In this document: positions 9,272 through 12,631 of the stretch, in pieces
How positions within the stretch are numbered: the first letter of the stretch is position 1
Layout: each line of letters begins with the position of its first letter
The notes under the pieces: generated by a model
What the model was told of the DNA's origin: nothing
Seen by the model: the letters and a program-made list of their open reading frames with translations, nothing else
Database searches by the model: none
Source: Bradyrhizobium sp. NDS-1
GTDB lineage: Bacteria; Pseudomonadota; Alphaproteobacteria; Rhizobiales; Xanthobacteraceae
DNA length: 64,000 nucleotides
Reading direction: 5' to 3'
Assembly: GCF_032918005.1 (NCBI RefSeq)
Contig: NZ_CP136628.1
Span: forward strand, 6,805,501 to 6,869,500
Translations under genes and position numbers: made by a program

Positions 9272-9646
9272 TCACGAAACCAGATCGGCCTTCATCAAGG
9301 TCCGGATCGATTTCGGGATCGGCTGGGCCCGGCCGCCGCTGATGAAGGCGACACGCACCTCGGCTTTCACCAGCACGTCTTCACCCTTCTTCACCTCCTG
9401 CGCAAGCATGATGGAGGCACCCTTCACCGCGATCGGCCAGGTCACGACGTCGAGCACGTCGTCCATCCGCGCCGGCTTGAGGAAATCCAGATGCATCGAG
9501 CGCACCACGAAGGCAAAACCCGCGCCCTCGGTCTCGACCTGATCGAACAGCGCCTGCTGCTCGGCGCCCATCAGCCTGAGATGATTGGTCCGTCCGCGCT
9601 CCATGTAGCGCAGATAGTTGGCGTGATAGACGATCCCCGAAAAATC
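9272..9646 (-). pseudogene. YbgC-like thioesterase, severed C-terminal part
   Basis: The minus strand reads DFSGIVYHANYLRYMERGRT and continues to the natural C-terminus, about 115 residues of a YbgC/hot-dog acyl-CoA thioesterase. The preceding residues of the motif (YYEDT) are missing and the frame upstream is foreign sequence. The missing N-terminus is found at 12497-12631. The only in-frame start is the internal ATG at 9604, so any product would lack the first strands and the catalytic Asp region. GC content matches the flanking chromosome. Confidence 0.85.
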
Positions 9647-9677
9647 CGTTCGGCCGCTATCGCAACAGCGCGCGGCA

Positions 9678-9980
9678 CTATTTTTTCTTGGGCGCTGGAA
9701 GCAACGAGCTGCGTGATTTCGTCCTTCGCTTCTTTACCGCTTGCGCTTCATGCGCCGCTAATCTCGCCCGAATTTCTCGGATTGCTTGTTGCGCTTCTTC
9801 GTCCGCCATTTGGCGACCGATAGCTCCCGCGAGCGCACACCATGCGTCCTCAAAATGGGATTGGGTAAAAATATTTCGCGGGTCATCGTGCGCGAGCGGA
9901 CGCATGACTGCGGATATTGGGGTTCTACGGTATCTTCCGGTGGGCATCGGACGCGCTCCCTCTGCGTCAACGATATTCAC
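9678..9980 (-). CDS. Hypothetical protein, 100 aa, lysine-rich tail (islet)
   Basis: The frame starts with GTG at 9980 (alternative ATG at 9947) and ends in a basic tail, KKRRTKSR to PAPKKK. The middle (IGRQMADEEAQQAIREIRAR) is likely helical. It lies inside the islet immediately next to the left junction and runs away from the other islet genes. No family was recognised. The opposite strand has an overlapping open frame of similar length, so coding status is uncertain. Confidence 0.4.
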   Translation of the reverse strand: MNIVDAEGARPMPTGRYRRTPISAVMRPLAHDDPRNIFTQSHFEDAWCALAGAIGRQMADEEAQQAIREIRARLAAHEAQAVKKRRTKSRSSLLPAPKKK

Positions 9981-10058
9981 TAACCTAAGTTTTTTCCACT
10001 GATGTTCTCGAAAAAGGTGAATTTTGACGTAAATTCAATATCTTAGTAGAAAGCTCGC

Positions 10059-10301
10059 ATGTCGCCGGAGCAATGTCGGGCAGCGCGAGCGTGGTTGAAT
10101 TGGTCCCAAGAAGAGTTGGCGACCAAGGCGAAGGTTTCGAGCAGCACGCTTCGCGATTTCGAAGCGGGGCGCCGGGTGCCTATTTCGAATAACCTGACGG
10201 CTATTCGGCGCGCCCTTGAAGACGGCGGAATACACTTTCTTTTCTCCAAGGCGGGCGACCAGCCTTGGGGCGTCAGCAACAGCCCCGATCAGCCGACGTA
10301 G
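10059..10301 (+). CDS. Small helix-turn-helix (XRE-type) regulator, islet
   Basis: 80 residues. It contains ARAWLNWSQEELATKAKVSS then TLRDFEAGRRVP and AIRRALEDGGIHF, a complete XRE/Cro HTH fold of the short type often found in rhizobial phages and integrative elements. There is nothing beyond the HTH except a short tail. It is the first plus-strand gene of the islet and may autoregulate it or control the adjacent toxin-antitoxin genes; this is inferred from position. Confidence 0.8.
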   Translation: MSPEQCRAARAWLNWSQEELATKAKVSSSTLRDFEAGRRVPISNNLTAIRRALEDGGIHFLFSKAGDQPWGVSNSPDQPT

Positions 10302-10413
10302 ATTTGAGCGCGACAGCCCTCCATTGGTAATGGAGCGCTCTACCGTTTTAATTGTCTGCCACTCCATGCAACCTGTAGTGTTGCCGAAGGCTTTGCCTTT
10401 TTAACCTTAATTC

Positions 10414-10441
10414 CTTAGCCGTTAGCGGTTGCCCTTATAAC
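10414..10441 (+). promoter_or_regulatory. Candidate promoter of the toxin-antitoxin operon
   Basis: CTTAGC, a 16-bp spacer and TATAAC resemble the rhizobial sigma-70 pattern (CTTGAC, N16-18, CTATAT). They lie about 60 bp before the toxin ATG in an AT-rich gap. The hexamers are imperfect and there is no experimental support. Confidence 0.3.
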
Positions 10442-10500
10442 AAAATTGATATATGTCGCTCGCACGCCTTCTTGCGGGTAGAACAAAAATGTGATATTTG

Positions 10501-10872
10501 ATGCCGCATGAACTTAAGCAATGGCCGGCTTCCGTCTACCCCGACGAAACTGAAGAGTTTCCCGAGGCGAAGCCGGACATTGACGTGGCATTGCTTGAAC
10601 TCCACCGGCGGGGACCGTCTCCGCTGGGCTATCAGGTCAAGGCTTTAGGTAAAGGTAAGGGTGGCCTTTGGCAGATGAACCTCAGGGTTGAGCGCAAGCA
10701 AATTCGGATCCTCTACGCGCCCTACAAGGATTCCATCGTTGTCTTCAGAATCCACAAGAAGGGATCACCGCAGGAGCAACAACGCGCTTACAAGTTAGCA
10801 ATGTCTCGCAAGAAAGAAGCCGAAGCGCTCATGAAAGGTGGAACCCATGTCAATTCACTTATCCTCCATTGA
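10501..10872 (+). CDS. HigB/RelE-like toxin (Gp49/DUF891 family)
   Basis: 123 residues from the ATG at 10501 (TTG at 10498 also in frame). The core shows GPSPLGYQVKALGKGKGGLW then LRVERKQIRILYA, VVFRIHKKGS and a C-terminal helix ending MSRKKEAEALMK, matching the pattern of HigB/Gp49-type mRNA interferases (gl.elR...RvlY...i.lLhgF.KK). It precedes the antitoxin, the usual HigBA order, and the two genes overlap by 26 bp. By family, it would cleave ribosome-bound mRNA unless bound by the antitoxin. Confidence 0.8.
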   Translation: MPHELKQWPASVYPDETEEFPEAKPDIDVALLELHRRGPSPLGYQVKALGKGKGGLWQMNLRVERKQIRILYAPYKDSIVVFRIHKKGSPQEQQRAYKLAMSRKKEAEALMKGGTHVNSLILH

Positions 10873-11389
10873 TCTTCGCCTACTGGAGAAGCTGCAAGGT
10901 GACCGCTCTTATCGACAAGCGTTCTTCCTTGCTGAGAGCTCCGCTCTAATTGCCAAACAACTAATTGAGCTACGGAAGCGTCGCGGGCTAAGTCAGAAAG
11001 AAGTCGCAGACGAACTACAAACAGGTCAGCCCGCAATCTCGCGCGTCGAACGCGCCGACTATCGTAACTGGTCATTTAATACACTTCGCCGTCTCGCGGC
11101 GGCGCTCGATGCACGAATTCGAGTAGTCATAGAACCCGCTGAAGACGTAATCCGCGAATACATCATTGAGAACAAGAGTGACCAAGTGAGCGAACTAAGA
11201 AGGATTTTCGTAAGGGGCGCGACGGATGCAAAACCCTCCGAGCGTGCGCTTATCGACGAACCGGAATCAGCTCTGACATCCCCTGCGCCTAAACAGCGCC
11301 CGCGTGCCAGCATATTAGATGACGCTGACGTGCCACCGCCAAAGCAAACGCCAAAGCAAAACGGATTGATGGGTGCAACGTGGAACTGA
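10847..11389 (+). CDS. XRE-type antitoxin with long C-terminal extension (HigA-like)
   Basis: 180 residues from the ATG at 10847, preceded by AAGGTGG 5 nt upstream inside the toxin gene. The HTH occupies about residues 38-90 (LRKRRGLSQKEVADELQTGQ, PAISRVERAD). The remaining 90 residues are an unusual extension: a helical part (DVIREYIIENKSDQ) and a proline-rich, probably disordered tail (PAPKQRPRAS, PPPKQTPKQ). Simple HigA antitoxins are about 100 residues. The gene overlaps the toxin by 26 bp and the next gene by 10 bp, so all three are translationally coupled. Confidence 0.8.
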   Translation: MSIHLSSIDLRLLEKLQGDRSYRQAFFLAESSALIAKQLIELRKRRGLSQKEVADELQTGQPAISRVERADYRNWSFNTLRRLAAALDARIRVVIEPAEDVIREYIIENKSDQVSELRRIFVRGATDAKPSERALIDEPESALTSPAPKQRPRASILDDADVPPPKQTPKQNGLMGATWN

Positions 11390-12024
11390 TTGGCTATGAC
11401 GTTTCAAGGATTGTTTATCTGACGAACTTTGTTCGCCGGGAAGGAAGCGGCTACCTACCCGAGATAGCTCAACGAGTTATTCAAACGTATTCCTTTTTAA
11501 AGTCTCCGAGCGCGGATGACCTACAAAAGGACGCGCAAACCTTTGCAATGGGCAAATTTCAGGGAATTCAGATCAACGAGCTTAGCGTTTATGGTGACGG
11601 CATCATTGTGTCTGGACGGTGCAGTACTCAAACACTCCAAGACTTCATAGCTGATCTTTTTGCAATGATGACAAAGGACTTCGGCTACATCGAAACCAGA
11701 GTCCTAGAGCCTGAAATGCATTACGAAAGTAGTTTAATTGTTCGATCGGGCAAAGCCCTCGATTCAGTCATCGCGCCACCGCAGCGAGTAACGACTACGA
11801 TCGAACAAACGCTTCGAGCGCAGACACGGGCCGAATATAGGCCAATCGGCTTCAATTTTGAAACCGATGTAAGCGGCCTGGGCACCCGTCGCCGACCTGT
11901 ACGTTTTTCGCTAGAGCGACGCTTAGGAGTGCCGTTCTCCAAAAACGTCTTCTACAGCCAAGCGCCGATAACTTCCGCAGATCACCTTGCGCTGCTTGAG
12001 AAGCTTGAACAGATCGCCGACTAA
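11380..12024 (+). CDS. Unrecognised 214-aa protein, third gene of the toxin-antitoxin operon
   Basis: The GTG start at 11380 overlaps the antitoxin gene by 10 bp. The sequence begins MELIGYDVSRIVYLTNFVRR and has a mixed alpha/beta pattern (QINELSVYGDGIIVSG, FIADLFAMMTKDFGYIETRV) and a basic patch (GTRRRPVRFSLERR). There is no signal peptide, membrane helix or obvious catalytic motif. I do not recognise the family. Its overlap with a HigBA-like pair suggests a modulator, chaperone or accessory effector, by analogy with toxin-antitoxin-chaperone loci. Base composition is lower in GC than flanking genes (26 G+C in the 60 bases 11461-11520). Confidence 0.65.
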   Translation: MELIGYDVSRIVYLTNFVRREGSGYLPEIAQRVIQTYSFLKSPSADDLQKDAQTFAMGKFQGIQINELSVYGDGIIVSGRCSTQTLQDFIADLFAMMTKDFGYIETRVLEPEMHYESSLIVRSGKALDSVIAPPQRVTTTIEQTLRAQTRAEYRPIGFNFETDVSGLGTRRRPVRFSLERRLGVPFSKNVFYSQAPITSADHLALLEKLEQIAD

Positions 12025-12032
12025 TAAACGCC

Positions 12033-12497
12033 TTAGTGATTAGCAGCGCCCATCGCGAGCCGAAGCGCGCGCGGTATGCGCTGCGCTTTTCCGTTACTTA
12101 CAAACGCCACTCTCACGCGCGCTTCGACAATTAGCTCGTTATCGCGTTTGCACCGCTGTAGCAGTGTAATAGACGCGCCTCTGACTTGATCAGGCTGGGT
12201 CACGACATCAAGGATGTCGTCCATGAAGGCAGGCTTCAGAAAATCGATCTGCATGGAGCGCACTACAAATGCAAAGCCGGACGGGGCTTCTCGTTCCGTA
12301 TCCTCAAAAAGCGCGCGCTGATCTGTCCCGAGCAATCTTAAGAAGTTTGTTCTACCCCGTTCCATAAATCTAAGATAGCTCGCATGATACACGGCTTTAC
12401 TGAAATCCGTATCTTCGTAGAACACACGCACTTTCATGTGGTGAGCGCCATCGCGAAGCTCACCATCGAGTGAAGTAATTTCGCTGGGCTCCGCCAT
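12033..12497 (-). CDS. ybgC: YbgC-like acyl-CoA thioesterase, intact islet copy
   Basis: 154 residues. The hot-dog motif VRVFYEDTDFSKAVYHASYL includes the catalytic Asp of the YbgC family and is followed by RFMERGRTN. It is homologous along its whole length to the split native thioesterase (compare FVVRSMQIDFLKPAFMDD with FVVRSMHLDFLKPARMDD) but has lower GC and different codon use. Its ATG at 12497 shares a base with the stop codon of the native N-terminal remnant (TGATG), so it is probably translated by termination-reinitiation from the native start region. It would supply the lost thioesterase activity. Confidence 0.88.
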   Translation of the reverse strand: MAEPSEITSLDGELRDGAHHMKVRVFYEDTDFSKAVYHASYLRFMERGRTNFLRLLGTDQRALFEDTEREAPSGFAFVVRSMQIDFLKPAFMDDILDVVTQPDQVRGASITLLQRCKRDNELIVEARVRVAFVSNGKAQRIPRALRLAMGAANH

Positions 12498-12631
12498 CAA
12501 GTCGAACCGAACAATTCTGATATTCCGTCTTTATGATAGACGAGCTGCAAAAAGTCGGTGTCCTCGTAATAGACGCGGACCTGCATGTGGTGGCGGCCGT
12601 CGCGGATCTCGCCGTCGAGATGGGCAGTCAC
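12497..12631 (-). pseudogene. YbgC-like thioesterase, severed N-terminal part
   Basis: From the GTG at 12631 the minus strand reads MTAHLDGEIRDGRHHMQVRV then YYEDTDF, the normal thioesterase N-terminus, before switching to unrelated residues (LQLVYHKDG...) and stopping at 12497, 44 codons in all. AGAGG lies 8 nt before the GTG. The remnant still has a start region and lies directly upstream of the intact islet copy, so it now acts as a leader peptide. The rest of the native gene is at 9272-9646. Confidence 0.82.

Follow-up and report, generated by a model that had tools for sequence, protein, structure and literature searches.

In the 64,000-nucleotide stretch of the Bradyrhizobium sp. NDS-1 genome analyzed here (contig NZ_CP136628.1; hereafter, the window), the native ybgC gene, which lies on the minus strand and encodes a thioesterase, is cut in two at its DTDF codons by approximately 2.9 kb of DNA that we call the islet. 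A search of the whole 7.65-Mb single-contig genome (E 1e-3) gives three ybgC matches in all, namely the two native pieces and a copy within the islet. Coordinates and GC content (0.52 for the islet, 0.62 for both ybgC pieces, and 0.647 for the window) confirm the claim of an earlier note, made from the sequence alone, that a native thioesterase is present here as two severed pieces around lower-GC DNA. The features that define the locus are as follows:

9272..9643, minus strand: severed C-terminal piece of native ybgC (C-piece); protein 100% identical to the same-species gene
9640..9643, minus strand: right crossover core TTTT, common to the empty site and both junctions
9644..9703, minus strand: islet right end, related to the right ends of serine-recombinase elements
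12033..12497 (12500), minus strand: islet ybgC, a complete replacement thioesterase of the element-type clade (profile match and tree)
12497..12549, minus strand: islet-encoded tail of the truncated N-terminal open reading frame (ORF), with a TGA stop at 12499-12497
12534..12549, minus strand: islet left end, in which TCGTCTATCA repeats the host attachment (att) half-site; not significantly similar to known left ends
12550..12553, minus strand: left crossover core TTTT, common to the empty site and both junctions
12550..12631, minus strand: severed N-terminal piece of native ybgC (N-piece), from the GTG start to the DTDF codons; protein 100% identical to the same-species intact gene

The insertion is real because a same-species genome, G092, keeps an uninterrupted ybgC at this locus, and the flanks of the window align to it with 96% (1469 nt) and 98% (1650 nt) identity, overlapping by 26 nt exactly at the insertion point. 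G092, in which both native pieces match a single unbroken gene, thus supplies the islet-free relative expected if, as the earlier note proposed, a single gene has been interrupted. Host DNA extends through GACTTTT at the left junction and begins with TTTTCGGGG at the right junction, and the crossover can therefore be placed within TTTT. The 'TDF' that precedes the C-piece is islet DNA mimicking the gene (ACGGATTTT), so that the stretch in common is TTTT rather than the whole of DTDF, and the 26-nt junction repeat is 77% identical. The earlier note was right about the site in placing the break in the DTDF codons at both ends, but the 'TDF' on the right belongs to the islet; the A-rich words that it saw at the junctions are present and are this T-run as it reads on the plus strand (9640-9644 and 12549-12553). 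The N-piece lies in a 44-residue ORF whose host codons occupy 12631 to about 12550 and whose remainder, to 12497, is islet-encoded. There is no tRNA gene in the 64-kb window that might have served as the target.

We searched the islet ybgC against 242 Bradyrhizobium genomes, its own included, of which 79 (most of the genomes with several matches and a few others) were listed in full. With native ybgC counted as severed when its N- and C-terminal parts are separated, the gene is severed in 42 other genomes, comprising 41 of the 241 others and G264 from a later search; G132, whose two halves each run into a contig end at the core, is outside this count. The junction falls at the DTDF/S codons in all 39 genomes read (38 right and 20 left junctions), the other three severed genomes being G217 and G264, for which the C-piece was not fetched, and G236, in which a truncated C-piece has lost the junction. 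These insertions at the same codons bear out the earlier suggestion of a defined integration site in thioesterase genes, and the site has been published as attBY, the attachment site in ybgC of the bipartite symbiosis integrative and conjugative elements (ICEs) of Bradyrhizobium (PMC9174649, PMC9239051). Gene order around the halves is also conserved, in that the N-piece has the same metallophosphatase gene as its neighbor in 19 of 20 genomes and the C-piece the same DUF1348 gene in 36 of 38; as exceptions, no metallophosphatase was found at the N-piece of G015, only a fragment is present in G055, and no DUF1348 gene was found at the C-pieces of G081 and G073. The halves lie 2-3 Mb apart in several complete genomes (at 7,971,118 and 2,463,095 of 7,998,085 in G021, for example), and in G145 an islet-type ybgC has itself been cut by a later element at the same codon. 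The NDS-1 locus is a genuine insertion, most likely a site-specific one, at a recurrent site and accompanied by gene replacement.

Two further arrangements were seen at this site. The junctions of G123 are joined in inverted polarity, with the right end at the N-piece and the recombinase end at the C-piece, reflecting either a true event or misassembly. At or close to the ybgC site, G155, G105, and G264 have several successive right ends, separated by stretches that carry their own ybgC but give no recombinase match; these arrays read as stepwise accretion.

In 18 of the 19 other genomes searched for PF07508, a gene for a large serine recombinase lies directly against the N-piece. Relative to the reference recombinase of G076, which has Resolvase, Recombinase, and zinc ribbon domains, these proteins are 81-99% identical in 16 genomes and 39% identical in G224. 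On the left, the elements terminate in the 3' end of the recombinase gene; on the right, their end sequences beside the C-piece are conserved. Inverted, similar halves around a short core are the expected shape of a serine-integrase attP. Around a core containing TT, the left and right ends of these elements do resemble each other when one is inverted, a likeness that is clear in some genomes and weak in others. G198 (G198:C81, about 2469) has a right end that abuts a left end, next to a decayed element ybgC, and this junction reads as an unreacted attP. None of the PF00589 (tyrosine integrase) places in the five genomes listed is at a ybgC junction. Elsewhere, G021 has a weak PF00589 match (E 1e-8; G021:C1:2459595-2460008) that lies upstream of its element ybgC by about 2.6 kb, and a PF00589 place in G105 is about 63 kb upstream of the element ybgC. 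The transfer mechanism, which the earlier note left open, is thereby narrowed to large serine recombinases in the relatives, and such an enzyme may have acted on the islet itself. In the family members that have an integrase, the recombinase encoded beside the N-piece would most likely join attP to attB via the short TT-containing core.

The strongest link between the islet and these elements is its right end. When aligned with 24 element right ends, a set from which the window and the different or truncated ends of G224, G028, and G073 were left out, the islet right end gives a mean score of 32.4, which is reached at none of 1500 random window positions and none of 1000 islet-interior positions. 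Moreover, the top window match of a hidden Markov model of the right end is in register with the junction (E 0.031). Given this match and the common TTTT crossover, we infer that the islet was probably moved by a large serine recombinase, a suggestion to which its left end adds no significant support. The islet thus shares the site, the core, the right end, and the replacement gene with the element family and lacks the family recombinase and left end; unlike in the family elements, its left end does not coincide with the 3' end of a recombinase gene. On these grounds we consider it likely, with a probability of about 0.78, that the islet is an integrase-less member of an element family that inserts site-specifically into ybgC (attBY) at the DTDF codons.

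Several observations weigh against this interpretation. The score of the islet left end is reached at 207 of 1500 random positions, so that it is not significantly like other left ends. The position of ybgC also differs: the islet has it at the left end, but most of the relatives read have it ~100 bp from a right end. Among the matches listed in 265 genomes of the genus, no single one covers more than about 430 of the 2884 nt of the islet, and these matches include no second islet copy. One of the 19 genomes, G015, has no recombinase at its N-piece, and recombinase action at ybgC is deduced from sequence. As for the recombinase itself, neither the islet nor the rest of the genome has a close relative of it; the best of the five PF07508 places in the genome is about 26% identical to the family recombinase over partial length, and two of the five give no match. 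Searches of its ORFs and of Pfam and NCBIfam profiles found no integrase, transposase, or conjugation genes in the islet, in agreement with the earlier note as regards the first two.

As the earlier note had recognized, the islet carries a complete, divergent thioesterase gene. Its product scores over the TIGR00051 (YbgC/FadM family) cut-off but falls just short of the cut-off for the YbgC equivalog TIGR02799 (141 bits against 141.35), and it is 63% identical to the native copy over the C-piece. Native Bradyrhizobium copies fall into one clade of a 95-row tree, with two rows from metagenome-assembled genomes adjacent to that clade; a separate YbgC clade (support 98/91) unites the element copies, the islet copy, and the closest database proteins of the islet copy. 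The tree rests on few columns and its inner forks are weak. The islet ybgC groups with the severed C-piece of G145 (support 99/89). The truncated N-terminal ORF ends in TGATG, in which the TGA (12499-12497) shares one base with the ATG of islet ybgC (12497-12495), and this overlap, together with the co-directional order of the two genes, suggests translational coupling. Lying right behind the severed N-terminus, the islet ybgC may therefore be expressed from the native promoter by such coupling. Because the element would bring in a complete substitute for ybgC, drawn from a distinct lineage carried by elements, the host would keep the function.

The state of the element ybgC varies with that of the native gene. 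It is intact in 41 of the 42 genomes with a severed native gene, the exception being the draft genome G133 with ybgC fragments at contig edges, as compared with 2 of the 14 in which the native gene is intact (Fisher p 2e-9, from hand counts and ignoring shared descent). Among the broken copies, those of G039, G057, G103, and G229 (and G226) seem to go back to one frameshift and those of G019 and G222 to another, so that the 12 broken copies represent about 8 independent events; with 8 independent breaks, p is 5e-7. The native type was confirmed by sequence in 6 of the 14 and assumed from identity and coverage in the other 8; this group omits the short-fragment genomes G014, G034, G071, G094, G118, G166, and G192, as well as G226 (a hybrid) and G242. 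These counts suggest that the replacement copy is preserved in cells that need it and in most cases degenerates in those that do not.

At the native locus of G226 (G226:C230) there is a hybrid ybgC, the N-terminal part of which is 93-97% identical to native copies and the C-terminal part 65-72%, with the switch near the DTDF codons and about 1 kb of extra DNA downstream. An element-type ybgC is also carried by p187_1, a 620-kb plasmid of Bradyrhizobium sp. 187. Most element copies have DTD[S/A]G[Q/K]IVYH in place of DTDFSGIVYH, DTDF being kept in four of them (G076b, G182, G224, and G028), in the G226 hybrid, and in the islet. We do not claim that the element gene was recoded to escape the recombinase, because DTD[A/S]G is common in YbgC elsewhere. 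A phage origin was likewise set aside: the phage records hold no close relative of the islet ybgC (3 matches, 32-33% identity), and none of 5 pattern matches in a scan of viral contigs was confirmed.

The remainder of the islet encodes the following proteins:

9678..9980, minus strand: hypothetical ORF of 100 amino acids; Pfam match below cut-off only
10059..10301, plus strand: small helix-turn-helix (HTH; XRE) regulator; profile match, with a 77% relative in G223
10498..10872, plus strand: HigB/RelE-like toxin candidate; Gp49 below cut-off, predicted-structure match
10838..11389, plus strand: HTH protein, HigA-like antitoxin candidate; HTH_3/HTH_37 above the Pfam cut-off
11380..12024, plus strand: 214-amino-acid protein with a predicted TATA-binding-protein (TBP) fold; fold prediction

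The HigB/RelE-like protein and its HTH partner form a candidate toxin-antitoxin module. The model of the toxin candidate matches HigB2, YafQ, and HigB1 (Foldseek probability 1.0, with modest E values of 0.004-0.006); no PDB entry was matched by its sequence, it falls below the curated HigB/HigA family cut-offs, and the partner passes those of general HTH families only. As in type II HigBA/RelBE modules, a protein with the RelE/HigB fold is paired with an HTH protein and the toxin gene comes first, but the islet cassette differs in having a third gene, with the TBP fold, and in its sequences lying below the family cut-offs. The 214-residue protein is only 6-13% identical to TBP rows, a likeness of predicted fold that does not imply a role in DNA binding or transcription. 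By sequence, its PDB matches are weak and confined to longin-domain and uS5 proteins; an assignment to TIGR04255 proved wrong, and no NCBIfam family matches it.

How an element without an integrase came to occupy attBY can be explained in more than one way. The islet may be the decayed remnant of an autonomous ybgC-targeting element that lost its integrase and most of its genes by deletion and then became fixed, being kept for the ybgC that the cell needs; we give this version of the family-member interpretation an even chance. It would account for the lack of a close integrase in the genome and for the short left end, in which ybgC follows after only about 50 nt at a place that the integrase occupies in relatives, and arrays with leftover right ends do exist; against it, the cargo ORFs are intact and form a neat unit, and both boundaries are still at the crossover core. 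On the other version, which we think possible although rather unlikely, the islet is a cis-mobilizable element, flanked by functional att sites, that becomes mobile upon entry of a ybgC-integrating element into the cell. The right-end homology and the stretches without a recombinase match in G155, G105, and G264 are consistent with this idea, but the left end is not recognizable as that of the family, and the matches listed include no second islet copy. In either case, the islet integrase would have been lost, and the islet would be mobile only in trans, if at all.

Illegitimate or transposon insertion, together with a coincidentally acquired ybgC, would fit the weak left end and the lack of an integrase or transposase. 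This explanation is nevertheless very improbable given that the same codons are used in 39 of 39 other genomes read, that the right end is shared, and that the replacement comes from the element-type YbgC clade. Nothing was found in favor of an assembly artefact or of two separate functional genes, and we regard both as next to impossible: the genome is a single contig, a same-species empty site has flanks of 96-98% identity, the pieces are not complete domains, and many other assemblies have the same structure. Returning to the islet as an integrase-less family member, we put forward more tentatively the idea that a YbgC lineage living mainly on mobile DNA has made itself indispensable, in that each element cuts the host ybgC at one codon and gives back a copy of its own, which persists only as long as the native gene is broken. 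The islet might then be a stripped form in which a ybgC coupled to the N-terminus and a three-gene toxin-antitoxin-like cassette with a TBP fold both make loss costly without an integrase.

Integrase-less cis-mobilizable elements (CIMEs) are found at the sites of ICE families, and the islet resembles them in lacking an integrase, in standing at an ICE site, and in having one end related to that of the ICE; its left end, however, is unlike that of the family, and the likeness is one of sequence. Some phages and ICEs insert in a conserved gene and restore it, most of them by restoring its 3' or 5' end. The islet is similar in that the element supplies the function of the target gene, but it brings a complete, divergent gene; the G226 hybrid, with its switch at the same codons, is closer to the end-restoring type. 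In the model of the bipartite tRNA-Val symbiosis ICE, a small B element lies 'near ybgC', with attBY in ybgC (PMC9239051, PMC9174649), and the passages at hand from these papers mention neither a cut in ybgC nor a replacement copy on the element. Going by layout, we take the genomes that have the recombinase and ybgC halves megabases apart to be of the B-element type. The islet and the B element have in common the target gene, a related right end, and a ybgC copy of their own, but the islet is only 2.9 kb long, has no integrase, has its ybgC at the left end, carries other cargo, and separates the native pieces by 2.9 kb rather than by megabases. Among the papers listed by searches of an open-access library, we recognized none that describes a replacement ybgC or a cassette combining toxin-antitoxin-like genes with a TBP fold.

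To the known attBY site, the analysis adds the severing of the gene, the recombinase class, the element-type YbgC lineage with its conditional decay, and the integrase-less islet. These findings give a codon-level account of the attBY site of Bradyrhizobium symbiosis ICEs and name the recombinase class found there. They also show that an integrase-less islet can occupy attBY and, from G145, that a later element can in turn disrupt an islet-type ybgC. Moreover, the element-borne replacement suggests how cells tolerate a cut ybgC whose halves are often megabases apart.
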